From Croceivirga sp. (GTDB lineage: Bacteria > Bacteroidota > Bacteroidia > Flavobacteriales > Flavobacteriaceae), in the NCBI GenBank assembly GCA_028284935.1, contig JANQQQ010000008.1, positions 186,001-250,000 on the forward strand: a DNA stretch of 64,000 nucleotides. Direction: 5' to 3'. Each line of letters opens with the position of its first letter. The first letter of the stretch is position 1. The notes under the pieces are model-generated. The model made no database searches. It worked only from the letters and a program-made list of their open reading frames with translations, and was not told where the DNA came from. Of the stretch, positions 2,607 to 32,049 are shown one piece after another. The translations under genes and the position numbers were made by a program.

Positions 2607-3299
2607 TTAAAATCCTTCTGCCAAATCCCTTAACTTGCGCTCATCAGAGATGGCTACTCGTTTTCCAGAAGTATGGATCAACCCCTTTTTCTTGAATTCG
2701 GATATAATCCGAATAGCGGATTCCGTGGCCGTACCTACCACATTGGCAATGTCTTCGCGGGAAAGTGTAAGGGCTAAAAAACCATCGGTGTCCTCACCAA
2801 AATTATTCTTTAAATAGAGAAACGCTTCTGCTATACGTTGCTTCACCGTTTTTTGGCTCATATTTACAATTACATCATCGGCCTCCTTTAGGTCGTGTGC
2901 CATATGTCGCAATACCTCCAAAGTGAAATTTGGATTTTTTTGAAGGGTAGTGGTAATACTTTCTTTCGGTATAAAACAAACTTCCATATCACTTACCGCG
3001 ACAGCCGAAAGATTGGCATGTTCTTCTGCAATGACGGAACGTTGTCCCATCACCTCGCCTTTGGTGGCCAATTTCACAATTTGGTCCTTGCCGTTAGGGC
3101 TTAATTTTGACATTTTGGAAACACCGTTTCTAACACAATACACTCCATTTAGCCTTTCGCCTTCCTCGAACAAAGGTTCCCCTTTTTTAACCGTTTTCAT
3201 GACTTTGGAATCGGAGACCTTTTTCAATTCCTCCTTATTCATTGCGCGAAGCGAGTTGAATTGTCGCACGATGCAATTTTCACATCTGCTATGATCCAT
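2607..3299 (-). CDS. Crp/Fnr-family regulator 1, Fnr-like
   Basis: The 230-residue protein has an N-terminal C6-x2-C9 pair, a cyclic-nucleotide-binding-like beta domain (about 25-120), a dimerisation helix (about 122-145) and a winged helix-turn-helix (about 150-225). Further cysteines are C55 and C108. The recognition helix reads T-E193-S-A-I-R197; Glu and Arg at this spacing match the residues by which Crp and Fnr read a TGA/TCA half-site. It is thus the best candidate for the factor that binds the TGAY-N4-RTCA boxes seen here. E. coli Fnr uses four cysteines for its 4Fe-4S cluster. Whether the cysteines seen here bind a cluster is unknown. Confidence 0.85.
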   Translation of the reverse strand: MDHSRCENCIVRQFNSLRAMNKEELKKVSDSKVMKTVKKGEPLFEEGERLNGVYCVRNGVSKMSKLSPNGKDQIVKLATKGEVMGQRSVIAEEHANLSAVAVSDMEVCFIPKESITTTLQKNPNFTLEVLRHMAHDLKEADDVIVNMSQKTVKQRIAEAFLYLKNNFGEDTDGFLALTLSREDIANVVGTATESAIRIISEFKKKGLIHTSGKRVAISDERKLRDLAEGF

Positions 3300-3367: not shown

Positions 3368-4051
3368 TTAAATCCCAATTCTTTCCAATCCTCCTCTGGA
3401 GAGAATGTAAATTTCACTTTTAATAGTATTGATAAGGCCAAAATTCTTGAAACTTTTAAGTAGATTGATGATGTACTCTTGGGAAGTCCCTAGTACCGCG
3501 GCCATATCTTCACGTTTCAGTCTTAGTAACAATTTTCCATCTTCGTCCATTCCGTATTTGTCAAGTAGATAAAGCAAGAGTTGGGCAAGTCGTTGTTTGA
3601 TACCCTTATGGACGCAGAAAACAATACGTGTATGATCATTGATATTGGCGTCCTCTACCAAGGCATCCAAAAAGTCTTGACAAAATCTGGGGTTGTCATT
3701 TAGATTTTCAATAATATCACCTTTGTCCAAGCAACATAGTTCCGTATCGGTTAGGGCTACCGCACTTACTTTCGCTCCATTATTGGTGAGGATGGAACGT
3801 TTTCCCATGACCTCGCCTTTTCCCAAAAAACGCAAAATATGCTCTTGTCCGTTATCGTCTACCTTACTGAACTTACAGGCCCCTTTTTGTATACAATATA
3901 ATTTGCTTAAAGACTGTTCTTCTTCAAAAATGATACTGCCTTTGGGAAGTCTTACGGACTCTGAGTGAAGGGCAAGCTTCTCTCTGGCCTCAACGGATAG
4001 GGATTCAAAATTTTTTAGTTGTTTGGATTGTATTTCATTGCAATTCCCCAT
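3368..4051 (-). CDS. Crp/Fnr-family regulator 2
   Basis: From the ATG at 4051 the protein has 227 residues: a sensor beta-roll (about 15-120), a long helix and a winged helix-turn-helix. An upstream in-frame ATG (4168) would overlap ccoI and the promoter, so I reject it. Only one N-terminal cysteine is present (C4), so a Fnr-type 4Fe-4S cluster is unlikely. The recognition helix reads Q-E-Y-I-I-N, with Glu but no Arg at the base-reading position, so its site probably differs from that of regulator 1. The ATG coincides with the predicted transcription start, so the mRNA is probably leaderless. Confidence 0.82.
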   Translation of the reverse strand: MGNCNEIQSKQLKNFESLSVEAREKLALHSESVRLPKGSIIFEEEQSLSKLYCIQKGACKFSKVDDNGQEHILRFLGKGEVMGKRSILTNNGAKVSAVALTDTELCCLDKGDIIENLNDNPRFCQDFLDALVEDANINDHTRIVFCVHKGIKQRLAQLLLYLLDKYGMDEDGKLLLRLKREDMAAVLGTSQEYIINLLKSFKNFGLINTIKSEIYILSRGGLERIGI

Positions 4052-4055
4052 GGAA

Positions 4056-4098
4056 CAAAGGTAGTTTGGGGCTAAATCATAAAAGATGACAAAAGTCA
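4056..4098 (-). promoter_or_regulatory. Fnr-type promoter of regulator 2, leaderless
   Basis: The box TGACAAAAGTCA (4087-4098) is a perfect palindrome. On the minus strand TACCTTTG lies at 4063-4056, giving the 36.5-bp spacing. The distance from box centre to the A of the ATG (4051) is exactly 41.5 bp, so +1 falls on the start codon. Confidence 0.65.
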
Positions 4099-4129
4099 TA
4101 TTTTCCCTCTTGGGGATGCGGCATTTTTG
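4087..4129 (+). promoter_or_regulatory. Fnr-type promoter of ccoI
   Basis: The same box at 4087-4098 serves the plus strand. CATTTTTG at 4122-4129 ends 36.5 bp from the box centre. Predicted start is 4134 (A), 13 bases before the ccoI ATG. One symmetrical site thus can drive two divergent promoters. Confidence 0.55.
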
Positions 4130-18477: not shown

Positions 18478-19260
18478 TTAGAAATCTTTTCGGCTCGATT
18501 TGTACTTTAAAAGAAAAATGGGAATCGCGTTCCAAAGGACCAACACCAACATGGAAGCCCAAAACCCTATTTGCGTGCCAAAGAACTTTTTGAATACCGC
18601 CCCTGTATAACCAAGGAGTGCAGAAATATCAAGCTTTAATAGAATCAACGTTCTGGAAAGATCAATAGGATTGAGTGCTGTGGCAATCATGGAAAATGTA
18701 TCCAGTGGGTATTCTTCAAAAATGATCAGGGACAATAGAAATATACCGTCATATATAACTGCCATAAAAAGCCATAACAATACGGCATACCCGAAACCTT
18801 TTATTTTGTTTTCGTTGTGGATAGCAATATTGAAAGCTAGGGCAGTAAAAATGAGGGTCAAAAAAATACCAACCACCAGAAGTAGGGCAAAATCAAATAT
18901 CGCGTTGCTTTTTAACAATCCGTATGCAGCAAACGGAATGCCCAGGCCAAGGGCCAAGCTTAATGAAAGGGAACCGGCGACACCAAAATATTGACCTAAG
19001 AAAATATGGGAACGTTTAATTGGTTGTGCCAAAAGCAGCTCGGTAAACTCTTTGGAATTATAATAGTACATGGTTCCGAATATGGTCCCAATCAATGGGA
19101 CCAGTACAATGATAATGTTCATTAGGGTGATCACCGCTTTGGAAAGGTCATTGTTCAAAAACAAAAGGACAAATCCGAGGGCGAGATAAAAGAAAAAATA
19201 GATGTAACTCCAACGGCTGCGAATTAAATCATAAAAACTGTACTTAAGAACCTTACCCAT
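18478..19260 (-). CDS. nosY: ABC transporter permease NosY
   Basis: The 260-residue protein has about six membrane helices and the ABC-2-type permease segment 'YYYNSKEFTELLLAQPIKRS'. With NosF and NosD it forms a transporter needed to mature the copper-sulfur centre CuZ of nitrous oxide reductase; it is thought to move a sulfur species. The start overlaps the end of nosF by eight bases. It is the last gene of the nos operon. Confidence 0.9.
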   Translation of the reverse strand: MGKVLKYSFYDLIRSRWSYIYFFFYLALGFVLLFLNNDLSKAVITLMNIIIVLVPLIGTIFGTMYYYNSKEFTELLLAQPIKRSHIFLGQYFGVAGSLSLSLALGLGIPFAAYGLLKSNAIFDFALLLVVGIFLTLIFTALAFNIAIHNENKIKGFGYAVLLWLFMAVIYDGIFLLSLIIFEEYPLDTFSMIATALNPIDLSRTLILLKLDISALLGYTGAVFKKFFGTQIGFWASMLVLVLWNAIPIFLLKYKSSRKDF

Positions 19261-19963
19261 ACCCTTCAGTTTTGGTTAATGCCGCAATCGCATGCTCTAC
19301 ATTGGTTTGTTGGGTTTTGGCCATTAAGGCCTTTAAAGTGCCTTTGAAGTAGATTTTTCCTTCCAAAAGATAAATGACCTCGTCGGCCACTTCTTCCACA
19401 AACTGCATAACGTGCGAGGTAATGAGCAAGGTTTTGCCATTCTCCTTTTCTTTTTTTATCAATTCCTTGAGTTGAATAAGCGCATTGGGATCCAATCCAG
19501 TATTGGGTTCATCCAGAATGAGAAGTTGGCTATTGAACATAAAGGCCAGTACTAAATTGACTTTTTGTTTAGTGCCACCGGAGAGATTGGACAGTTTTTT
19601 GTTACAATAAGGTTGGAGCTTAAATAGTTCAATCAAAGTATCGGCATTACCCTTATCATTTCGAAGGTCCTTAATCATGTCAATAAGCTCATTGACCTTT
19701 AGATTACCTGGAAAATTTGCAATTTGGGGTAAATAGTCGATTTGTTTGCGGTATTTCCAACCTTTTTTTATGGGCTCCCCAAGCACCTCAATGGAACCCT
19801 TATCAGGAATGACCATTCCTAAAACGCTTTTGATCAGCGTAGTCTTACCTGATCCATTTGGTCCTAGAATGGCGTAAATTTTACCATGTTCGATATTGAG
19901 ATCAATACCCTTTAAAACCTCATTTTTTCCAAATTTTTTATGTAAATCGGAAATGTTGATCAT
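19253..19963 (-). CDS. nosF: ABC transporter ATPase NosF
   Basis: The 236-residue ATPase shows Walker A 'GPNGSGKT' (34-41), the signature 'LSGGTKQK', and Walker B followed by 'DEPNTGLD'. It powers NosDFY. The gene overlaps nosD by four bases and nosY by eight, a clear sign of co-translation. Confidence 0.93.
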   Translation of the reverse strand: MINISDLHKKFGKNEVLKGIDLNIEHGKIYAILGPNGSGKTTLIKSVLGMVIPDKGSIEVLGEPIKKGWKYRKQIDYLPQIANFPGNLKVNELIDMIKDLRNDKGNADTLIELFKLQPYCNKKLSNLSGGTKQKVNLVLAFMFNSQLLILDEPNTGLDPNALIQLKELIKKEKENGKTLLITSHVMQFVEEVADEVIYLLEGKIYFKGTLKALMAKTQQTNVEHAIAALTKTEGYG

Positions 19964-21198
19964 AAGCGTTTTTTCATCAAGGGTTGGGCATCTTTTAGAT
20001 TGTCGGGGGTAAATACCGGAGATACTTTTTCAGAAAAATCAATGATGTCCATAAACAACGAACGCAGCAAAATAATGGTCTCCGGGGTTTTGTTCGCAAT
20101 ATAGGAAAACAACTTTACCGGGCGATAGGGAACATCGCCAATACCATCTTTGTCCAAATCATAGCCCGTGTAATTACTCCAGTAATTTGACCTAAACTCG
20201 TTGTCGTTCAATTTGCTGTTATAGGAGACATCGAAGGAGTTGTGCATAAAATTGTTGCCTGTAAACAAATTGGTGTAACAGGCACCGATGACGCGTATGG
20301 CCCAGCCGTTTTTGATAAAATCGTTGTCCTGGTATGTAATTCTATTTGATCCTTCTATGCTAATGGCAACGGTATTTTCCGAAAAGGTGTTGTTCTGTAT
20401 TTCGGCATCATTGATTTCCTTTAATAACAAGCCATAGGCGGAAGTGCCCCAATTCTTTTTAAAGGTATTATTGATCATGTCAATATTTCGGGAGAACATG
20501 ACGGCTACGCCCGCACCATTTTCCTCAAAGGTGTTTTGTGTATAGACATCATTATCTGAAAACATGAAATGTAGCCCGTAACGGAGGTTTTTGGTGCTGG
20601 TATTTTTTGTGATGGTAATATTGTCCGAAAATTCCAGATAGATACCATCCCTTGTGCCCTGAACATGGTTATGACTTACGTCGACATAATGGGAGTACCA
20701 TAGTTGTATGCCATTACCCGAATTGTACTCGTCTTTGGCTTCGCCAATAATCTTATTGTGGTATACCTTACCATGGGATGACTTTTCCAGGTAAATGCCA
20801 AAAAACAACTTTTCCAGTACCACGTTTTGAATGGTGAAGTTTTCACTTTTGGTTACCCGAATTGCCGCAAAATCAGTAGTATAACTCACCCCGACGTTGA
20901 TGATGAAAAGGCCATCAATGGTGACATGGTCAGAGGTAATCTTTATGATTTCGCCCTTTTTCTGGCCATCAATAATGGGGTAGTTGTGGCCTTTTAGGGT
21001 CAAAGGCTTATCCACATAAATATTGTACTCATAATAGGTTCCCTTTTTGACCAATACCGTATCATATTCCTTGGCGACTGCAACACCTTTTTTAATTGAG
21101 TTGATGGTGCACGATGGGCACACCTCAACAATTCCTGCAATTGCATTACCAAAAATTAGGAAAAGCAATACTACCGGAAAGAATGTGTTTCGCTCCAT
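19960..21198 (-). CDS. nosD: Periplasmic copper/sulfur chaperone-like NosD
   Basis: From the ATG at 21198 the protein has 412 residues: a signal peptide, a 'CPSC' pair, then a right-handed beta-helix of repeating N-x-F/I ladders ('YLEKSSHG', 'IYLEFSDN', 'LHFMFSDN'). NosD is the periplasmic partner of NosFY and interacts with NosL. The longer frame opening at 21243 would enter the cupin gene and is not used. Start and stop of the two genes overlap by one base. Confidence 0.92.
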   Translation of the reverse strand: MERNTFFPVVLLFLIFGNAIAGIVEVCPSCTINSIKKGVAVAKEYDTVLVKKGTYYEYNIYVDKPLTLKGHNYPIIDGQKKGEIIKITSDHVTIDGLFIINVGVSYTTDFAAIRVTKSENFTIQNVVLEKLFFGIYLEKSSHGKVYHNKIIGEAKDEYNSGNGIQLWYSHYVDVSHNHVQGTRDGIYLEFSDNITITKNTSTKNLRYGLHFMFSDNDVYTQNTFEENGAGVAVMFSRNIDMINNTFKKNWGTSAYGLLLKEINDAEIQNNTFSENTVAISIEGSNRITYQDNDFIKNGWAIRVIGACYTNLFTGNNFMHNSFDVSYNSKLNDNEFRSNYWSNYTGYDLDKDGIGDVPYRPVKLFSYIANKTPETIILLRSLFMDIIDFSEKVSPVFTPDNLKDAQPLMKKRL

Positions 21199-21497
21199 CA
21201 ACGAATAATAAGAAATTTGGAATCTTCCAAAGCTTCTACCCAATGTTCGGTATGTTTTGGAAAACTGAACTCCTGTTGTTGCATCAGATGGATGGAATGG
21301 TCCTCAATGTAAAAAACAAGCTGTCCTTGTAACACAATGAGGTGAGCATCCTCATTGGATTCGTGGGACGGAAAAATGGCATTCTTCTCCAAACTGATGC
21401 TCAGCACTTCATATTTTTGGTTTTTTACCAATGTTTGTATTTGCAACCCATCAAAAGCTTGATTGGCGATGGTATTGTCAATGGTTGTGGTGTACAT
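21198..21497 (-). CDS. Small cupin-like protein in the nos operon
   Basis: This 99-residue protein has a cupin barrel pattern: 'FPSHESNEDAHLIVLQGQLVFYIED' gives a conserved His/Glu region (the stretch is split over about residues 43-67), followed by a second motif with 'FSFPKHTEHWVEA'. It overlaps nosL by 20 bases and meets nosD. Single-domain cupins in nos clusters are of unknown role; metal or small-molecule binding is plausible. Confidence 0.72.
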   Translation of the reverse strand: MYTTTIDNTIANQAFDGLQIQTLVKNQKYEVLSISLEKNAIFPSHESNEDAHLIVLQGQLVFYIEDHSIHLMQQQEFSFPKHTEHWVEALEDSKFLIIR

Positions 21498-21945
21498 GAT
21501 TGTGACTTAATTGGGACCTTTTCTGAAATGCCCTTCGTAATTCTTCCCACGTGAATAATTCACCGCCATGTTCCTTCAAAGCTATTTGCGCTTCTTCCAA
21601 GGTTTGAAAGGCTGTTAAATAGGCTCCCATTGGACTTGGAATGCCCTTACTTATCAAAAAAGTGCAATTTTGGACTTCCGTCAGGGCTTCGGGTTGATGG
21701 TACGTATTGGTTAAAAGTAGCCCTATCTCTTGTTCTTCAACTTGCCTAAGATAGTTGATCATGCATTCCAAGGCATCAAAATTGAAAACCTTTCCTTTCG
21801 CCGTTACCAATTGTGCCGCATGTTGTTTATCGACTACAGTCATGCTGCAAAATTTACACGAAGTTTCCCCATAAACTATGGGTTCAGGGGCAACCTTACA
21901 TGAAAGCAGTAGTAACAAGAGATAGGTCCAACCTTTTTTCATCAT
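21478..21945 (-). CDS. nosL: Copper chaperone lipoprotein NosL
   Basis: The 155-residue protein has a lipoprotein signal with C16 and the NosL metal motif C30-x2-C33-x-M35. A second conserved stretch, 'FNFDALECM', follows. NosL is an outer- or inner-membrane lipoprotein that brings Cu(I) to NosD/apo-NosZ. A second ATG follows directly and could be the real start. It overlaps the cupin gene. Confidence 0.93.
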   Translation of the reverse strand: MMKKGWTYLLLLLLSCKVAPEPIVYGETSCKFCSMTVVDKQHAAQLVTAKGKVFNFDALECMINYLRQVEEQEIGLLLTNTYHQPEALTEVQNCTFLISKGIPSPMGAYLTAFQTLEEAQIALKEHGGELFTWEELRRAFQKRSQLSHNHVHHNH

Positions 21946-21948
21946 ATA

Positions 21949-22629
21949 CTAGTTTGTGGCCAACGTACCGTTAGTGATTGACTTCACCTTTTTACCACGT
22001 GTTTTCCATCCCATAAATCCCGCCATAAGGGTCAAAAACATCCCCACCATCATAAGGTAGGCTCCCAACCTGGGGTAGGAATAGGCATCAAAATTGAGCA
22101 TTTTCTCGTGCCCCAGCAATGGAGGCTTGTAACTCATGGGCGTACCATCTGGGTTTTGCAATTTCATAATTGCCTTGGGATCTAGATTAGTACCATAGTC
22201 AATAAGCCATGCATTAAAATCATACATCCCCAAAACACCCAAAATGGTCATCACCGCCAACCAACCAAAAAACCAATAATATGCCAGTTTATCAAAATAA
22301 CCTAAAAGGCCTATCAGCACTCCAATAGCGGCCATACTGCCCACTACAATGGGAAAAACGGTAAATTCCCACATGTCTTCAGGTTTGGGCAATGTTTTCA
22401 TACCAATGTAATGGTTAAGATTATCTATATTCTGAATGTCGAACTCACTTTGTCCCTGAAGACCGTTAATATGAATATTAAGGCCCAAGGGCTCAGGATA
22501 TTGAGGAGCTCCGAGTTCAATGTTCCACAAAGGAAAAAAGAAGAGTCCCAGCAACAAGATGGAACCCATGATCATTAAAACACTTGCTTTTTTCACGTAA
22601 TTCTTTTTTAAGGTTGTAAAGCGGGCCAA
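21949..22629 (-). CDS. Four-helix membrane protein linked to nosZ
   Basis: The 226-residue protein has about four transmembrane helices (near 14-33, 85-105, 113-133 and 188-210) and an outer-facing segment with 'LGLNIHINGLQGQSEFDIQNIDN' spread over residues 48-70. I do not recognise a named family. It sits between nosZ and nosL, 34 bp downstream of nosZ and three bp before nosL. Its place recalls the membrane protein NosB of epsilonproteobacterial clusters, but homology is not shown. Confidence 0.7.
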   Translation of the reverse strand: MARFTTLKKNYVKKASVLMIMGSILLLGLFFFPLWNIELGAPQYPEPLGLNIHINGLQGQSEFDIQNIDNLNHYIGMKTLPKPEDMWEFTVFPIVVGSMAAIGVLIGLLGYFDKLAYYWFFGWLAVMTILGVLGMYDFNAWLIDYGTNLDPKAIMKLQNPDGTPMSYKPPLLGHEKMLNFDAYSYPRLGAYLMMVGMFLTLMAGFMGWKTRGKKVKSITNGTLATN

Positions 22630-22663: not shown

Positions 22664-24622
22664 TTATTCACCTAATGACCAGGACAATTCAATATTTGAA
22701 TTGGCCGGAGAAACCCGCACATAACCTTGCATTTCTTGGTGCAGTGCAGAACAGAAATCCGTACAGTAGAATGGCCACACCCCTACTTGTTTGGGCTCCC
22801 AAACCGAAGTCTTGGTCTGCCCAGGCATGATCAGCAGCTCTGAAGTGTTCTGACCCAGAATGGAGAATCCATGGGGCACGTCAAAATCCTGTTCGTGGTT
22901 CGTAATATGGAAGTACACTTTATCGCCCACCTTAATTCCCTCAATGTTATCAGGGGTAAAGTGACTACGAATGGTACCCATATACACGTGGACCTCTTTT
23001 CCGTTACGTTCTACCCTGGCTTCAGATGGATTGTTGATACCATACGGGTGCTTATTTTCATCCAATCGATAAATCTTCTTGGATTTGGAAGCCAATAGTT
23101 CGGCTGGACAACCTGCGGCATAGTGCGGCTCACCATGGGTTGGGAAGTCATAGATTAACTCCATTTTTTCACCCGAAATATCATATATCTGAGCGGAATG
23201 TTCCATCTCTGGACCTGTTGGCAAATAGCGATCCTTGGTAATCTTGTTCATCGCTACGACATATTTGCCAAAAGGCTTGCGGGAGTTACCTCCAGGAATC
23301 ATCAAGTGTCCTACGGAGTAGAAGGTAGGTTTACGATCAACTACATCCCAAGTTTCCAATCGCCACTTTACTACTTCAGAAGAGATAAAGAAGGTGGTAT
23401 AGGCATTGCCATTGGCATCAAACTCTGTATGCAATGGGCCAAGGCCTCCACTTTTAACGATACCGGCCATGACGTCATCAAAGCTCAGAATAGGAATACC
23501 ATACGCCTCTCCATCAAATTTTTCACCTTCAATGGCAGCCAGCATTTTGGTAAAGGAATGTACGGTCAAGTCTGCTGAAAGCTTTCCGGAACCAATAATG
23601 TATTCCCCACTTGGATCAACATCACAACCATGTGGTGATTTTGGTGTAGGCAAGAAAAATACCGCACCTTCTATCTCGGTTGGATCTACCGTGACCACCT
23701 CTTTTTTCATAGTGGTTGTGCCCGTATGGGTCTCATGACTGTATACATTATGGGCATAGTTGGTGGCCATTTTGGTACCCCCGCCATTGTTTACATAGTC
23801 CTCAATTTTCTTCCAGTTGATCGCAGCAATAAAGTCTTTGTCATTTTGCGAGGAATTTACTTCCATCAAGGTGTTGGCCTCTTCGGTATTGTAGGTGCTG
23901 AAGAAATGCCATCCGTGTGATTTGCCGCGACCAGGGTGTGAAAGGTCGTAATTGAAGCCAGGCATCAAAACTTGGAATTTCAAATCCAAACGACCTGTTT
24001 CGGGTGCCACGCTGATAAAGCTCAACGCCCCTTTAAAGTTTCCTTTATATTCATTGATCGGCATGTCTCGTTGGGGCACGGGCACGGCAAATCGGGTTCC
24101 GGCAATGACATACTCCGTGTTTTCCGTAATAAAGGCCGAACTGTGGTTACCGCCACTATTGGGGATTTCAATGATTTCCTCGGTTTCAAAGGTTTCCAGA
24201 CTAATTCTGGCAATCCGGGGAGTATTGTTACCATTGACGAAAATCCATCGGCCATCCAATTCACCATTGGTTTGGGAAATGTCGGGGTGGTGCAAATCAT
24301 CCCAAGGAATAAAGCCATGTGAAGTATTCAACATGGGTTTGGTCTCTTCAGAATATCCGTAGCCCGAAGTTGGAAATTGGGAGAATACTGGAATTTCCTT
24401 GAACATTCGCCCAGAAGGAAGGCCATAAACCGTTAAGTTACCGCTATATCCACCCGATAGGAAGGCATAAAATTCATCTTGTTCGCCCGGTGCCACATAC
24501 ACCTTTTCTGCGGCGGATGATGCCAAGGCACCATTGGTATTTGGGCCAGCAGCTCGATTGCATCCCATGTAAACTAGGGTTAGGCCCAAAAGACCGCCAA
24601 TTAGATAATAGATTTTTTTCAT
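22664..24622 (-). CDS. nosZ: Nitrous oxide reductase NosZ, Sec-type (clade II)
   Basis: The 652-residue enzyme reduces N2O to N2 outside the inner membrane. It begins with a lipoprotein-type signal ('LVYMG' then C21) and lacks a twin-arginine motif, as in atypical (clade II) enzymes. The beta-propeller carries several His motifs for CuZ ('HPDIS', 'SHPGRGKSHGWHFF', 'NYAHNVYSHE', 'GEPHYAAG'). The cupredoxin domain carries CuA: C620-x3-C624-x3-H628-x2-M631. Fasciclin and cytochrome c genes precede it. No nirK, nirS or norB is in the window, so N2O may come from outside. Confidence 0.97.
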   Translation of the reverse strand: MKKIYYLIGGLLGLTLVYMGCNRAAGPNTNGALASSAAEKVYVAPGEQDEFYAFLSGGYSGNLTVYGLPSGRMFKEIPVFSQFPTSGYGYSEETKPMLNTSHGFIPWDDLHHPDISQTNGELDGRWIFVNGNNTPRIARISLETFETEEIIEIPNSGGNHSSAFITENTEYVIAGTRFAVPVPQRDMPINEYKGNFKGALSFISVAPETGRLDLKFQVLMPGFNYDLSHPGRGKSHGWHFFSTYNTEEANTLMEVNSSQNDKDFIAAINWKKIEDYVNNGGGTKMATNYAHNVYSHETHTGTTTMKKEVVTVDPTEIEGAVFFLPTPKSPHGCDVDPSGEYIIGSGKLSADLTVHSFTKMLAAIEGEKFDGEAYGIPILSFDDVMAGIVKSGGLGPLHTEFDANGNAYTTFFISSEVVKWRLETWDVVDRKPTFYSVGHLMIPGGNSRKPFGKYVVAMNKITKDRYLPTGPEMEHSAQIYDISGEKMELIYDFPTHGEPHYAAGCPAELLASKSKKIYRLDENKHPYGINNPSEARVERNGKEVHVYMGTIRSHFTPDNIEGIKVGDKVYFHITNHEQDFDVPHGFSILGQNTSELLIMPGQTKTSVWEPKQVGVWPFYCTDFCSALHQEMQGYVRVSPANSNIELSWSLGE

Positions 24623-24652: not shown

Positions 24653-25237
24653 CTATTCTTCCGGTGGAAGAATGACCTTATCCACCACATGTACGATACC
24701 GTTACCGGCATTGACACTGCCCAAAATCTTTGCTCCGCCCACGTAGACATCGTCACCTTTAACCTCCACGGTGGTATTTTGATCATTGGCCTGCCCCAGT
24801 TTTTTAAACTTTTTCAAAAACTCCTTATCGTATTTGCCGGGGGTAACGTGGTGCTTCAGGATGTTCTGTAGTGCGGCCTTATTTTCGGGCTTTAGCAAGT
24901 TCTCTACCGTACCCTCGGGTAGGGCAGCAAAGGCATCATTGGTAGGGGCAAATACCATTAATGGACCAGCGTTGACCAATGCGTTTTCCAGATCGGCCGC
25001 TTGAACCGCAGCTACCAAGGTGGAATGATCAGGTGAGCCGATTGCAATTTGAAGCACGTTTGGAGTGGACTCATCATTTTCAATAAAGGCCTGACCGGAT
25101 TCTTTGTTGGCCTCCGTATCATTTGTTACTTCCGAGGTGGAAGCCTTCTCCGTTTTGTTCGTGGAATTACAACCCACCACTAAAAACAATAGCAGCAGTG
25201 GATACACCAAAGTTTTAAGTTGGACACTAGTTTTCAT
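24653..25237 (-). CDS. Fasciclin-domain lipoprotein
   Basis: From the ATG at 25237 the protein has 194 residues: a lipoprotein signal ending at C23, an acidic linker and one fasciclin domain (about 60-190) with the H1 motif 'AVQAADLENALVNAGPLMVFAPTND' in residues about 76-100 and a final 'GNGIVHVVDKVILPP'. Fasciclin domains mediate adhesion or extracytoplasmic assembly. Co-transcription with nosZ suggests a role in holding or maturing the N2O reductase system; this is inference. A start at 25270 would lie within the cytochrome gene. Confidence 0.88.
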   Translation of the reverse strand: MKTSVQLKTLVYPLLLLFLVVGCNSTNKTEKASTSEVTNDTEANKESGQAFIENDESTPNVLQIAIGSPDHSTLVAAVQAADLENALVNAGPLMVFAPTNDAFAALPEGTVENLLKPENKAALQNILKHHVTPGKYDKEFLKKFKKLGQANDQNTTVEVKGDDVYVGGAKILGSVNAGNGIVHVVDKVILPPEE

Positions 25238-25247
25238 ATATATTGGT

Positions 25248-25754
25248 TTAAAGTGTTCTAAAGAATTCAAGAAGGGAACGGGTCTGTTCGACTGTTAAAT
25301 TTTGGTTCGCCATCGCTGCTCCGTTAAATTCTACCAGAAGGTCTTTTGCGCAACGATCTTCTTCAACCATAAGCTGGGGATCTAAAATCATGTTCATGAC
25401 CCATTCAGGGCTACGTCGTTCCAAAATGCCCTCCATTTTAGGACCGATGAAACGTCTATCAGTTTTATGACAGGCGGTGCAGTTTGTCTTAAAGAGTTCA
25501 CCACCGGAAGTCGCCATTTCTTGGTCAATCTCAGGATCTAAGGTAATGTTCTTGATTTGCCCTACTCCTTTGTTGTCCAAGGTGATGCGTTGTGAAGCGG
25601 GCACCTCATTGGTCGACTCTGGTGTTTCGACGGCCTGTTCAGTAGATTTTTTGCGTTCTACACTAAAACCATCCTCCTTTTTTTCAGTTTTCCCTCCACA
25701 TCCTACAATCAGAAGGGCAAGTAAGCATGCAGAAATTGTGAATTTGATTTTCAT
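25248..25754 (-). CDS. Lipoprotein c-type cytochrome, first gene of the nos operon
   Basis: The 168-residue protein has a lipoprotein signal ('LLIVG' then C19), a charged linker and a class I cytochrome domain with C92-x2-C95-H96. A Met-containing C-terminal part with 'GAAMANQNLT' can give the sixth ligand. As the first gene of the operon it probably hands electrons to NosZ from the quinol side. It is preceded by a perfect Fnr-type promoter and a 20-bp palindrome. Confidence 0.88.
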   Translation of the reverse strand: MKIKFTISACLLALLIVGCGGKTEKKEDGFSVERKKSTEQAVETPESTNEVPASQRITLDNKGVGQIKNITLDPEIDQEMATSGGELFKTNCTACHKTDRRFIGPKMEGILERRSPEWVMNMILDPQLMVEEDRCAKDLLVEFNGAAMANQNLTVEQTRSLLEFFRTL

Positions 25755-25777: not shown

Positions 25778-25820
25778 CAAAAATAGGGGGGGATGGTTGT
25801 GGAAAAAATGATTTTTATCA
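25778..25820 (-). promoter_or_regulatory. Fnr-type promoter of the nos operon
   Basis: The box TGATTTTTATCA (25809-25820) is centred 36.5 bp from the last base of TATTTTTG (25785-25778, minus strand), a full match to TAnnTTTG. Predicted start is about 25773 (A), 19 bases before the ATG. Confidence 0.72.
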
Positions 25821-25851
25821 TATAAAAGATAAAAATGTCTTTTAATATTTA
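25809..25851 (+). promoter_or_regulatory. Possible promoter of the Rrf2 gene
   Basis: The same box viewed on the plus strand has AATATTTA at 25844-25851 at the standard distance, a weak match. Predicted start near 25856 leaves an 18-base leader to the ATG at 25874. The 20-bp palindrome would then cover the promoter, as for autorepression. Confidence 0.35.
25824..25843. promoter_or_regulatory. 20-bp palindrome, putative Rrf2 operator (nos side)
   Basis: AAAAGATAAAAATGTCTTTT is a near-perfect dyad (AAAAGAYA and its complement) centred at 25833.5, 60.5 bp upstream of the predicted nos start. The identical 20 bases occur at 29293-29312 before the copper receptor operon. It is adjacent to the gene of an Rrf2 regulator, and half-sites starting AAGAT are known for NsrR. 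Confidence 0.6.
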
Positions 25852-25873
25852 TTTTTAGAAAAAGAGATTGTCA

Positions 25874-26305
25874 ATGTTATCGAAGTCTGCAAAATATGCA
25901 CTTAAAGGTGTACTTTATTTGGCCATGAATACCAATGAGCAGAAAAGGGTAATGGCCAAGGACATCAGTGGTCCTATAAACGTACCTCCCTCTTATATAG
26001 CCAAGTTATTACAGCAACTGGGGAGACATGGGGTTGTTTCATCCATAAAGGGGCCACATGGCGGATTTTTCCTTACGGAGGAAAACAAAAAGACCCCTTT
26101 GATCAAAATCATTGATCTATTGGATGGAGAATACCGTTTGAAATCATGTATGCTCAGTTTGAAAGATTGCAACGAGTTGAACCCTTGTCCACTTCATAGA
26201 TTGGTGGGCAACGTAAAATCAGACTTCATCAGGAGCTTGGAGCAAACTACCATTGCTGAATTGGTACAGGATATCAAAGATGGAAAGTCCTTTTTGCCCT
26301 TATGA
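25874..26305 (+). CDS. Rrf2-family regulator with three cysteines
   Basis: From the ATG at 25874 (a TTG at 25868 is less likely) the protein has 143 residues. It has an N-terminal winged helix with 'VPPSYIAKLLQQLGRHGVV' across residues 37-55 and a later 'GPHGGFFL' wing, then cysteines C92-x6-C99-x5-C105. IscR and NsrR carry three cysteines in this place that hold an Fe-S cluster. The regulator may thus sense nitric oxide, iron-sulfur status or oxygen. It is divergent from the nos operon and next to the 20-bp palindrome it probably binds. Confidence 0.88.
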   Translation: MLSKSAKYALKGVLYLAMNTNEQKRVMAKDISGPINVPPSYIAKLLQQLGRHGVVSSIKGPHGGFFLTEENKKTPLIKIIDLLDGEYRLKSCMLSLKDCNELNPCPLHRLVGNVKSDFIRSLEQTTIAELVQDIKDGKSFLPL

Positions 26306-26340
26306 ACCAATTGTCCAATCTAAAATCAAAGACTGGTATA

Positions 26341-26370
26341 AAAAAGCCGCCCAATACTGGACAGCTTTTT
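26341..26370. terminator. Possible bidirectional terminator
   Basis: AAAAAGC (26341-26347) pairs with GCTTTTT (26364-26370) between the convergent Rrf2 and receptor genes. The loop is 16 bases, so the stem is weak. The rest of 26306-26524 shows no gene. Confidence 0.35.
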
Positions 26371-26524
26371 AAAACCAAATATGAAAATCCAATCAAAACT
26401 GCATTTCAAAATAGAGGCTACTGGCCTGGTTTTCTTCGGTGACATCCTTACCTTTTAAAACCCCACCCGAAGCGTTTTAATCTTAAGATTGATTCCCCAA
26501 TACCTTGTTATGGTCAATGAGCTT

Positions 26525-28792
26525 TTAAAAAACAAAACTAATTGAAGCAAACGCATTACGACCTGGGGCAAAAATAGGGATGTTATTTCCTCTTACCGAA
26601 CGGTTCAAATGTTCATAATAGTTTTCATCGAAGAGATTGTTGACTCCTGCTGTTATTCTGGCTTCTTTGGTCAAGTTATAACCTAATTGTATGTTAAGCA
26701 ATGAGAATGCCGGGGTTTCTGTTTCTCCAAACTCTGTGGATATTCTTGACTGTTGCATGACATGTCTAAAAGTCACTTGGGGTTGCAGCTTCCCATCCAA
26801 ATAATCACCGATTAACGTGTATCTAAAGTCCAATGGGGCAATCTCGGGCAAGGGCTCATCTCGCTCCAAATCTTGGGCGTAGGTATAGGCCATGCCTACT
26901 TGTTGTTGAAGGCCCACCAACAATTTCTGTGTCCAGTTCAGTTCAATACCGGTTTTAAATGCATCCTCAATATTGACGAACTGCCTTACTCCCGGACTAT
27001 TGGGCAACCTAGGTGAAAGGTCCTCATCAATAAAGGACGAGATAAAATCTTGAAGATAACCTGCAAAAACATCTACGTCTATATTGGCTTGCGCAGTGCT
27101 CCATTGAAATGTCAAATCTAACTGGTTGTTGATTTCTGGGTCAAGGCTAGGATTTCCTAAAAGTTCAAAGGGATCCTGCCCAACCGGAAAATAATTGATA
27201 AAACGCTCGGTAAGACCGGCACTGCGTTGCGCCCTGCCCAACCAGAGTCCCAATACCACTTCTTCTCCAACGTTAGTAGTGGCACCCAAACTAAAACTGG
27301 GATTAAATTGTGAAACGCGGGTTTCACCATTGGCCTGGACAAATTCGTCTGCGGGATCATTGACATCGGCAGTATTCAATTCCATTCGAGTTGAGAAAAC
27401 GAACCGTGTCTTTTCTAGATTAAAATGGTATTCGGCAAAAACACTACCCTTTGAAATAAAACCTTCTTGCCATGCGTTGTCCTCGAAAGTACGTCCAGCA
27501 TTAGGTCCCATCAAAAATTCACGTACTCTTATCCCCTCTGCACCCTCGCGCCTAAAGTCAGCTCCGGCGAAAAGATTGGATTTTTCAAAATTCCAAATAC
27601 CCTCTGTACGTCCGCCATAATTAAATGTTTTAGCGTTCGTACTTGCATTTAACATTCGTGGGTCAAGGGGCTTTAAAAGATTATCCATTAAATGATCTAC
27701 AAAGGAGGCGAAAACCGTAGTATTCCATGAGCTTAAGTTCTTGTTTTCAAACGTTATATCATGGCGTGCGTTGAAAAGCCAAGTGTCATCTTCCCTTAAA
27801 TCCATGGGTAGTGCCGGAAAATCAGCATCTCTTGCGACATTGTAAATTGCAGATACCCTCAATTGGTTGTTGTCAGCAAAGTTTAGGCCGATATTGGTGC
27901 CAAAACTACCGCGATTGAAATCTGCGGCAATCGTTTGTCCGTTTCCTGCAGTATAGTCATTGCCTTGCGACCAAGACCCTAATAACGCAATATCATGGTT
28001 CTCACCGCTAAAACCCAATTTTCCTTCATTTCGAAACACAGCTCCATTGCCCTCGTAGCCGCTCGAAACCCTACCATATAGTTCAGGATTTTCGGTAAAG
28101 CGCAACTTGGCAGGAACAAAGTTGATAGTGGCTCCAAACCCTGTACCAAAACGAAGTGCATGAGGTCCTTTTAATACTTCAATTCTGTCAATTGTATTAG
28201 GTGACATTTGACTTGTAGGTGGATCCATACGATTGGGACAGGCCGCCGTAGCACCTTGGGCACCGTTGAGTACAATATTTAACTGATCGTACTTGAAACC
28301 CCTAAAAACAGGGTCAAAACCATAGTTGCCACCTTTTCTGATGGAATTTAGTGCCGGGTTCTGATTTAGTATATCGGCACCATCGTGTGCAAGCTGATCT
28401 TGATAGTCAAGTCTTACCTTTTCATTAGGTTTCTCGTTGGGGCGAAGGGCCAAAACGGTAACCGGATAAAGATTGACTGTTATGCTTTGTCTGTAATACA
28501 CCTTTTCTTGAATCATCTTTAAAACCACATTTTCATCCAAAATCCATTTGCCATAATTAATGTGTGATAAATACATCGAAGTGCCCTCTTCGAAAACAAA
28601 GTCAAAATTTCCATTGTCATCGGTGGTTCCATATTGTTGGCCATATTCAAAAGTAGCACCTGTTATGGGCATGGAGTTATCTTTGTCCAACAGTCTTATT
28701 ATTTCCGTTTCTTGGGCAAAGGAACCTAAGAGTCCAAAGCCGTACATCAAAGTAAGAAACAATCCTTTTCTAATTTTTTGTAGATATTTCAT
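26525..28792 (-). CDS. TonB-dependent receptor with OprC/NosA-like copper site
   Basis: The 755-residue outer-membrane receptor has a signal peptide (about 1-26), a carboxypeptidase-like N-terminal beta domain (27-110), a plug (about 125-235) and a 22-strand barrel ending in Phe ('ASISFVF'). The plug holds C185-P-N-R-M189 and an outer loop holds H367-L-M369. In the copper receptor OprC the Cu ligands are a CxxxM in the plug and an HxM about 180 residues later; the same pair and spacing occur here. It is thus a candidate copper importer that supplies NosZ. The gene is co-directional with a Cys-rich small protein and shares its promoter architecture with the nos operon. Confidence 0.88.
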   Translation of the reverse strand: MKYLQKIRKGLFLTLMYGFGLLGSFAQETEIIRLLDKDNSMPITGATFEYGQQYGTTDDNGNFDFVFEEGTSMYLSHINYGKWILDENVVLKMIQEKVYYRQSITVNLYPVTVLALRPNEKPNEKVRLDYQDQLAHDGADILNQNPALNSIRKGGNYGFDPVFRGFKYDQLNIVLNGAQGATAACPNRMDPPTSQMSPNTIDRIEVLKGPHALRFGTGFGATINFVPAKLRFTENPELYGRVSSGYEGNGAVFRNEGKLGFSGENHDIALLGSWSQGNDYTAGNGQTIAADFNRGSFGTNIGLNFADNNQLRVSAIYNVARDADFPALPMDLREDDTWLFNARHDITFENKNLSSWNTTVFASFVDHLMDNLLKPLDPRMLNASTNAKTFNYGGRTEGIWNFEKSNLFAGADFRREGAEGIRVREFLMGPNAGRTFEDNAWQEGFISKGSVFAEYHFNLEKTRFVFSTRMELNTADVNDPADEFVQANGETRVSQFNPSFSLGATTNVGEEVVLGLWLGRAQRSAGLTERFINYFPVGQDPFELLGNPSLDPEINNQLDLTFQWSTAQANIDVDVFAGYLQDFISSFIDEDLSPRLPNSPGVRQFVNIEDAFKTGIELNWTQKLLVGLQQQVGMAYTYAQDLERDEPLPEIAPLDFRYTLIGDYLDGKLQPQVTFRHVMQQSRISTEFGETETPAFSLLNIQLGYNLTKEARITAGVNNLFDENYYEHLNRSVRGNNIPIFAPGRNAFASISFVF

Positions 28793-28818
28793 AAGTGTTT
28801 ATTAAATAATTCAACCTT

Positions 28819-28849
28819 GGATACTCCACGGTAAGAGATGGAGTTATCC
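28819..28849 (-). repeat. Hairpin between the small Cys protein and the receptor
   Basis: GGATACTCC and GGAGTTATCC (28819-28849) can pair with one bulged base in the 79-bp gap of this two-gene unit. No T-run follows. It may tune the ratio of the two products. Confidence 0.25.
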
Positions 28850-28871
28850 TTCTAATTCTTCAAGAGGTGGA

Positions 28872-29243
28872 TTAGACCTCTGGGGGTTGAACTATTTCAA
28901 AAACAAAAAGAAAAGTGGTCATATCCAAGTAGGAATCGTCCACGACCTGCGATTGATTCAATTGACGGGATAATTGGTGGGCGGTAGCGGTTGCAGAAGT
29001 GTTTAAAATCAGTGGAATTTCCAATATTCGCCCTTCAGCAAAGGGATTTTCATGGTTTTCCGTTGATTTCTCTGCAAACATTTTAGTTAAATAACATTTG
29101 CCATCACATTGTAATTGGGGTTTATCCCGGTTTTCACAGAGATTTGTTACAATGTAGTCGTAATTGATGATGTATACAGCAAGAGGCCAAAGGGGTTTTA
29201 CCAGCATCACTAGAATTAATGGTATGGCCAACAATTGCTTCAT
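28872..29243 (-). CDS. Small Cys-containing membrane or secreted protein
   Basis: The 123-residue protein has an N-terminal hydrophobic segment (about 1-28) and a cysteine motif 'LCENRDKPQLQCDGKC' (C at about 36, 46 and 50). The tail ends with a second hydrophobic patch. I do not recognise a named family. It is co-directional with and 79 bp upstream of the copper-type receptor, so a copper-binding or relay function is plausible. The ATG is also the predicted +1 of transcription, so the message is probably leaderless. Confidence 0.65.
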   Translation of the reverse strand: MKQLLAIPLILVMLVKPLWPLAVYIINYDYIVTNLCENRDKPQLQCDGKCYLTKMFAEKSTENHENPFAEGRILEIPLILNTSATATAHQLSRQLNQSQVVDDSYLDMTTFLFVFEIVQPPEV

Positions 29244-29247
29244 GGGT

Positions 29248-29290
29248 CAAAAGTAATGGCTGAATACAAGGGAAAACCTGATTTTTGTCA
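29248..29290 (-). promoter_or_regulatory. Fnr-type promoter of the copper receptor operon, leaderless
   Basis: The box TGATTTTTGTCA (29279-29290) is centred 36.5 bp from the last base of TACTTTTG (29255-29248, minus strand), a full -7 match. The centre is exactly 41.5 bp from the A of the ATG at 29243. Confidence 0.72.
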
Positions 29291-29292
29291 TA

Positions 29293-29312
29293 AAAAGATA
29301 AAAATGTCTTTT
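29293..29312. promoter_or_regulatory. 20-bp palindrome, putative Rrf2 operator (receptor side)
   Basis: It is identical over 20 bases to 25824-25843 and lies 59.5 bp upstream of the predicted start of the receptor operon. The flank through the Fnr-type box also matches the nos promoter with one base gap and two substitutions. It sits just beyond the stop codon of the flavin-type gene. Confidence 0.6.
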
Positions 29313-32006: not shown

Positions 32007-32049
32007 CAAAATTATCGGGCTTTTACCAGAAAAAATATGATAAATGTCA
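32007..32049 (-). promoter_or_regulatory. Fnr-type promoter of the hemN operon
   Basis: The box TGATAAATGTCA (32038-32049) is centred 36.5 bp from the last base of TAATTTTG (32014-32007, minus strand). Predicted start is about 32002, 14 bases before the ATG. The box sequence is identical to that of the cco operon. Confidence 0.72.

Follow-up and report, generated by a model that had tools for sequence, protein, structure and literature searches.

The NsrR regulons of Proteobacteria, Bacillus and Streptomyces comprise dnrN/RIC and norB, in some taxa nirK, and, by prediction, the nos genes of P. profundum (PMC1274295). In E. coli, the FNR-driven nrf promoter is damped by NsrR from upstream (Browning 2010, cited in PMC12285233). 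Pseudomonas makes the receptors NosA and OprC anaerobically; NosA has been linked to NosZ, both receptors are repressed by copper, and the copper ligands of OprC are C143, M147, H323 and M325 (PMC8610252). Rrf2 genes beside clade II nos clusters have been reported (PMC6264515), and in Melioribacter the Rrf2 beside nos was suggested to control it (PMC3534657): this is the same rrf2-nos neighbourhood as the one described here, and the relevant passages of the two sources give no DNA site, composite promoter or receptor coupling. The portion of a paper on clade II Flavobacterium drawn on here does not name Rrf2 (PMC9697520). The Rrf2-nos neighbourhood is already in print; in the open literature, subscription papers being mostly outside its scope, we found no account of the box, of the composite promoter or of a coupling of nos to a copper receptor in Flavobacteriia, and none of nos gene control in Flavobacteriaceae.

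The window, a 64,000-nucleotide stretch of a Croceivirga sp. genome (contig JANQQQ010000008.1, positions 186,001 to 250,000), carries both a nos operon and the operon of a TonB-dependent receptor. As in the NsrR regulons, whose targets are dnrN/RIC, norB, nirK in some taxa and the nos genes of P. profundum (PMC1274295), the regulator found here is of the Rrf2 family, and its putative targets in relatives are genes of the same kinds. Unlike in those regulons, the regulator scores under the NCBIfam NsrR cut-off; the NsrR box (gATGyAT-N5-ATrCATc; PMC1274295) and the palindrome of our systems (AAARGAYA-N4-TRTCYTTT), compared by eye, differ; and PMC1274295, in the portion that deals with NsrR regulons, mentions neither a copper receptor nor Flavobacteriia. 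With E. coli nrf, as described in the cited portion of PMC12285233, the locus shares an anaerobic FNR-driven promoter with an upstream Rrf2-family element (putative here); it departs from nrf in its genes, its box and its -7 element, and in a nearly fixed spacing over about 100 promoters, with two operons involved. Like OprC/NosA, the receptor has copper ligands; unlike the copper-repressed OprC and NosA (PMC8610252), it has FNR and Rrf2 boxes in its promoter and a small GKCYL gene at the head of its operon. The features concerned are these (coordinates in the window; positions relative to transcription starts are predicted from the -7 boxes):

2607..3299, minus strand: Crp/Fnr regulator with an N-terminal CxxC, candidate reader of the FNR box
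18478..22629, minus strand: rest of the nos cluster (membrane protein, NosL, cupin-like small ORF, NosD, NosF-like ATPase, NosY-like permease)
22664..24622, minus strand: nosZ, Sec-dependent (clade II); TIGR04246 923.2 bits, cut-off 625
24653..25270, minus strand: fasciclin-domain protein, start uncertain
25248..25754, minus strand: cytochrome c lipoprotein, first gene of the nos operon
25778..25785, minus strand: -7 box TATTTTTG of nos, 23 bp past the FNR box, predicted 19-nt leader (consensus as given in part of PMC9723704)
25809..25820, minus strand: FNR-type box TGATAAAAATCA of nos, predicted centre -41.5
25824..25843, unstranded: palindrome, putative Rrf2 box of the nos promoter, predicted -70 to -51; relative to rrf2's own promoter, predicted -38 to -19
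25850..25857, plus strand: likely -7 box TATTTTTA of the rrf2 gene, one off consensus
25874..26305, plus strand: rrf2, Rrf2-family regulator with C-x6-C-x5-C-x2-H; ATG at 25874, TTG at 25868 also possible
26525..28792, minus strand: OprC-like TonB-dependent receptor, ligands C185, M189, H367, M369
28872..29243, minus strand: small GKCYL protein, 123 aa, first gene of the receptor operon
29248..29255, minus strand: -7 box TACTTTTG of the receptor operon, 23 bp past the FNR box and 4 nt before the ATG
29279..29290, minus strand: FNR-type box TGACAAAAATCA of the receptor operon, predicted centre -41.5
29293..29312, unstranded: palindrome of the receptor operon, predicted -69 to -50

The 20-mer AAAAGATAAAAATGTCTTTT, an imperfect palindrome of the form AAAAGA-y-A-N4-T-r-TCTTTT, is identical at 25824-25843 and 29293-29312, as a sequence-only reading of this DNA had stated, and exactly these two copies exist in the 4.23-Mb genome (38 contigs). 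Within the window they are the sole matches at up to 3 mismatches (shuffle mean 0.03), and none of 100 window shuffles gave two palindrome matches. A search for chance copies in the rest of the genome returned no further match at up to 2 mismatches and five at 3 mismatches; the reversed-sequence control gave five in total at up to 3 mismatches. Both copies lie upstream of minus-strand operons, cytochrome-fasciclin-nosZ and small-gene/receptor, and the first also precedes the plus-strand rrf2 gene.

Toward both operons the order of elements is the same: the palindrome, 3 bp (nos) or 2 bp (receptor), an FNR-type box TGAYnnnnRTCA, 23 bp, and TAnTTTTG. The sequence-only reading had rightly described blocks of about 33 bp, alike with one gap (palindrome and FNR box stand 3 bp apart in one, 2 bp in the other) and two substitutions, and an FNR-type box next to each palindrome. 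Its distances to the predicted starts, 60.5 and 59.5 bp, were a mix-up: the former runs from the FNR-box centre to the nos start, the latter from the palindrome centre to the start of the receptor operon. Like for like, the distances are 60.5 (nos) and 41.5 (receptor) for the FNR box and 79.5 and 59.5 for the palindrome. With the -7 boxes taken as reference the two FNR boxes line up, each at a distance of 23 bp. The flavobacterial sigma-A -7 box is TAnnTTTG, at -12 to -5, according to the part of PMC9723704 that describes it, so the FNR box is predicted to centre at -41.5 in both promoters, a class II FNR/CRP-dependent position, and the palindrome at about -60. As the receptor-operon -7 box ends 4 nt before the ATG, we predict a leaderless mRNA starting at that ATG; the same source puts leaderless mRNAs at 5.5% in F. 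psychrophilum. Among relatives, 19 of 21 cases (duplicates included) have 4-5 nt between the end of this -7 box and the start codon.

Class-II-like FNR promoters without a palindrome also occur in the window, at 32049 (minus), 32078, 36908 and 4098 (minus) with a spacing of 19-24 bp allowed, and the palindrome is therefore a specific addition at nos and receptor. The segment 31960-32140 holds a divergent pair of promoters of this kind, without the palindrome, between hemN (31988, minus) and a CBS-domain gene (32109, plus). The window has two Crp/Fnr genes, beside cbb3 oxidase genes. One of them (3368-4100, minus) has an FNR box of its own, a -7 box 23 bp further on and an ATG (4051) 4 nt after that; it is probably self-controlled and leaderless, and its longest-ORF start (4168) is likely wrong.

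Within the nos cluster, NosL and NosD were assigned by model match and the other members read from ORF translations without a model. The receptor finds its best PDB match in OprC (7.5e-40); its best NCBIfam match is TIGR01778, the TonB-dependent copper receptor, at 232.9 bits and under the cut-off of 472.45. C143, M147, H323 and M325 of OprC align with C185, M189, H367 and M369 of the receptor, and all 20 receptors compared retain the CxxxM and HxM motifs, even those of a subfamily that shares only 23-27% identity with the window's receptor. The earlier assignment of a copper receptor to the shared promoter thus agrees with an OprC-like protein whose ligands are kept throughout. The small GKCYL protein gave no match in Pfam, NCBIfam or PHROGs; it is membrane-anchored, with an invariant C..C.GKCYL motif and relatives in 176 of 299 family genomes, and is a candidate copper protein.

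For comparison across relatives, we fetched the best 80 of 285 nosZ loci and 30 Rrf2 loci. A cytochrome c match was present in 108 loci, counting the window and leaving out the own-genome copy L098; removal of 2 contig ends and 4 duplicates left 102 distinct nos promoters. A -7 box was counted if it lay exactly at +23 and matched five or more of the six defined letters of TAnnTTTG, and a palindrome if it lay directly upstream and matched at least 15 of 20 letters, four positions being free. The FNR box is found in 102, the -7 box at +23 in 101 and the palindrome in 100 of these promoters, with a gap between palindrome and FNR box of 3 bp in 91, 4 bp in 7 and 2 bp in 2. Receptor-operon promoters were located in the same fetched loci via the small first gene: the 20 distinct ones, nearly all within 10 kb of nosZ, have the FNR box and the -7 box in every case and the palindrome in 19, the exception being L030. 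The block that had been proposed for a search before nosZ in other Flavobacteriia is therefore present at both operons across relatives. In G201, rrf2 adjoins the receptor operon and both operons keep the elements, the nos palindrome at 15/20; a single transcript for receptor and nos was rejected there, each having its own FNR box, -7 box and palindrome.

These data bear on the reading in which the FNR box alone controls both operons, the palindromes being a recent promoter copy without a function of their own. The identity of the two 20-mers in the window and the FNR promoters that do without a palindrome would suit it; against it speak the conservation of the palindrome across the 102 nos promoters, its retention before two receptor subfamilies (one sharing about 80%, the other 23-27% identity with the window's receptor), and the sequence differences between the two palindromes of most relatives, where both persist all the same. 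We regard this reading as highly improbable. With the relatives included, the finding stands more firmly than a single genome could show: N2O reduction and copper import share a conserved composite promoter, made up of an FNR box and an apparently NsrR-like element.

The composite does not extend to all receptors of this type. In a wider family sample of 30 small-gene loci, of which 24 were parsed, 7 (the window included) have a clear composite, all in genomes with nosZ, and two more are borderline; receptor-type loci hence do not universally carry it. Searched as a pattern with up to 2 mismatches, the composite yields 54 places, spread over 51 of the 299 family genomes, and its reversed control yields 1; nosZ, present in 143 of the 299, is present in 47 of these 51 (Fisher p 3.8e-13). 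Nos promoters account for 44 of the places; the other 10 are two receptor operons, a NosL gene, nirK, norCB, a Crp/Fnr gene, three sites by an alginate-export-type porin (two of them also with ABC ATPase genes) and one within a long ORF of G287 (L158), which we set aside as probably due to chance. The pattern misses the window's own receptor promoter because the 2-bp gap breaks it.

The palindrome by itself is uninformative as a count: its exact degenerate form occurs in 52 of 299 genomes versus 45 of 299 for the reversed control, which is chance level, and only the neighbouring genes and the composite are informative. We examined the neighbours of 57 sites (60 places minus the window's two and one of two in G104) and of 30 control sites out of 49 control places, judged with the same gene panel, which had been drawn up after the true sites had been viewed. 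Upstream of N-oxide, receptor or Rrf2 genes lie 23 of the 57 (nos 7, norCB 5, RIC 5, receptor 3, Rrf2-B 2, nirK 1), with 18 inside ORFs and 16 elsewhere; for the controls the figures are 0, 22 and 8. Genes of NO detoxification and NO reduction thus stand under the same box in relatives. Sampled identities include NirK over its cut-off (L199), RIC over its cut-off (L183, L189), RIC domains (L184, L191), NorB by its nearest solved relative, 3o0r (the L147 copy), and a qNorB beside Rrf2-B (L188). In G269 there are exactly three palindrome sites: nos, RIC and receptor.

At norCB (5 of 5) and nirK (1 of 1) the FNR-box spacing is kept (23 bp, once 22), and the palindrome starts between -2 and +8, over the predicted transcription start (L190, L195, L202, L203, L207 and L199, near 1501). 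The palindrome covers about -47 to -26 at the two Rrf2-B genes and at two of the RIC genes, and is near the start at two other RIC genes; the -7 boxes at norCB, nirK, RIC and Rrf2-B were picked by pattern, some being one letter off. Each of these is a repressor position. The same boxes hence occur in two layouts, near +1 at norCB and nirK versus -60 at nos and receptor. Judging by its neighbours, the palindrome looks like a flavobacterial Rrf2 (NsrR-like) box, and NO appears the likeliest second signal, gaining support from the sites at norCB, nirK and RIC genes in relatives. In the window's own genome, with the palindrome at two sites only, no NO gene stands under the box; searches there for cNorB (run without a positive control) and for ScdA_N/RIC gave no match, and the NO therefore need not be the organism's own product.

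Two further neighbourhoods were seen. In L193, L208, L248, L253 and L259 (near 1501) an efflux gene of the CusA/CzcA type, to all appearance identical in the five genomes, has a palindrome of the same class 116-117 bp before it; this may be a mobile metal-resistance unit under a different regulator. In L130, L131, L143 and L182 (near 1501) a composite or palindrome lies upstream of the alginate-export-type porin, with ABC ATPase genes beside it in L130, L131 and L182, of the nitrate type in L182; nitrate uptake may join the regulon in some genera.

The protein encoded beside the first palindrome belongs to the Rrf2 family (PF02082, 94.5 bits, cut-off 30; TIGR00738, 101.3, cut-off 73.3). Assignments as NsrR (NCBIfam NF008240, 41.1 bits, below the cut-off of 182) and as IscR (NCBIfam TIGR02010, 65.5 bits, below 207.55) were rejected. 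The three cysteines noticed in the sequence-only reading belong to a C-x6-C-x5-C-x2-H motif that is invariant in 80 of 80 relatives (duplicates included; four loci without a good adjacent Rrf2 left out). Three cysteines and a histidine are the ligand set of IscR.

The palindrome is present in all 93 nos promoters with a divergent Rrf2, and 7 of the 9 without an adjacent Rrf2 keep it too (L043, L055, L059, L067, L071, L093 and L096, the last at 16/20); it is absent at L091 and L094. A rule that the palindrome is lost where Rrf2 is lost was discarded, being true in only 2 of 9. Divergent Rrf2 remnants (truncated or with stops) lie beside the cytochrome c gene in L071 and L174, with the palindrome kept. 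Six of the nine genomes were searched: five (L043, L059, L067, L093, L096) hold both the palindrome and Rrf2-B, in copies 53-100% identical to that of L059, while in L091, where the palindrome is gone, no close Rrf2-A or Rrf2-B was found. These seven palindromes, the five Rrf2-B genomes and the two Rrf2-B genes that carry the palindrome themselves could mean that the adjacent Rrf2 does not read it and that its reader is Rrf2-B or some other factor. We consider this improbable in view of the 93 of 93 and of the window's genome, where the only Rrf2 besides the adjacent one shares about 28% identity with it and gave no Rrf2-B match; that both Rrf2 types share one box is more likely. We read the pattern, in small numbers, as probably reflecting one box common to both types.

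The best explanation, to which we give a probability of about 0.65, is that FNR at -41.5 activates both operons and the divergently encoded Rrf2 at about -60 restrains them until NO appears. Both operons, nos and copper receptor, would be transcribed from one kind of composite promoter: an FNR-type activator in the class II position, with the CxxC-bearing Crp/Fnr protein as candidate, would turn on both at low oxygen, and the putative Fe-S-type Rrf2, binding the palindrome at both promoters, would most likely hold down FNR-dependent transcription until its cluster is hit by NO (or lost). With the palindrome lying over the -33 region of its own promoter, Rrf2 would repress its own gene too.

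The same factors could act with the other sign, Rrf2 co-activating nos and receptor from -60 by touching FNR or polymerase and repressing norCB, nirK and its own gene. A 3-bp gap in 91 of 100 nos promoters is tight for a mere block and fits activation by contact, which counts against the best explanation, and -60 is a palindrome position peculiar to nos and receptor, the one at norCB and nirK being about +1. IscR, which acts both ways, offers a precedent. Yet tight spacing fits anti-activation equally, the window's receptor promoter has a 2-bp gap, and, by the account of Browning 2010 cited in PMC12285233, nrf, an FNR-driven promoter of E. coli, is repressed by NsrR acting from upstream; we therefore hold co-activation to be the less likely sign, though a serious one. 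Tentatively, and with reservations of similar weight, the layouts might be joined in an N-oxide regulon that flavobacteria control through a box of their own; position would set two modes for one kind of Fe-S Rrf2 protein: repressor near +1 (nirK, norCB) and contact partner of FNR at -60 (nosZ, copper import). If this were true, the N2O-to-N2 step and its copper supply would be switched apart from the earlier steps.

Under restraint by Rrf2, the preferred explanation, the copper importer, an outer-membrane protein, and the copper enzyme would be made at the same time in anoxia with nitrogen oxides around: loss of oxygen and the arrival of nitrogen oxides probably turn on both at once. With nosZ in 143 of 299 sampled genomes, Flavobacteriaceae are a large potential sink for the greenhouse gas N2O. 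The promoter code (Rrf2 box, FNR box, -7 box and nearly fixed spacing) makes their nos control predictable from sequence, and it places copper import in the same programme, a point that matters for the question of when N2O removal is limited by copper.
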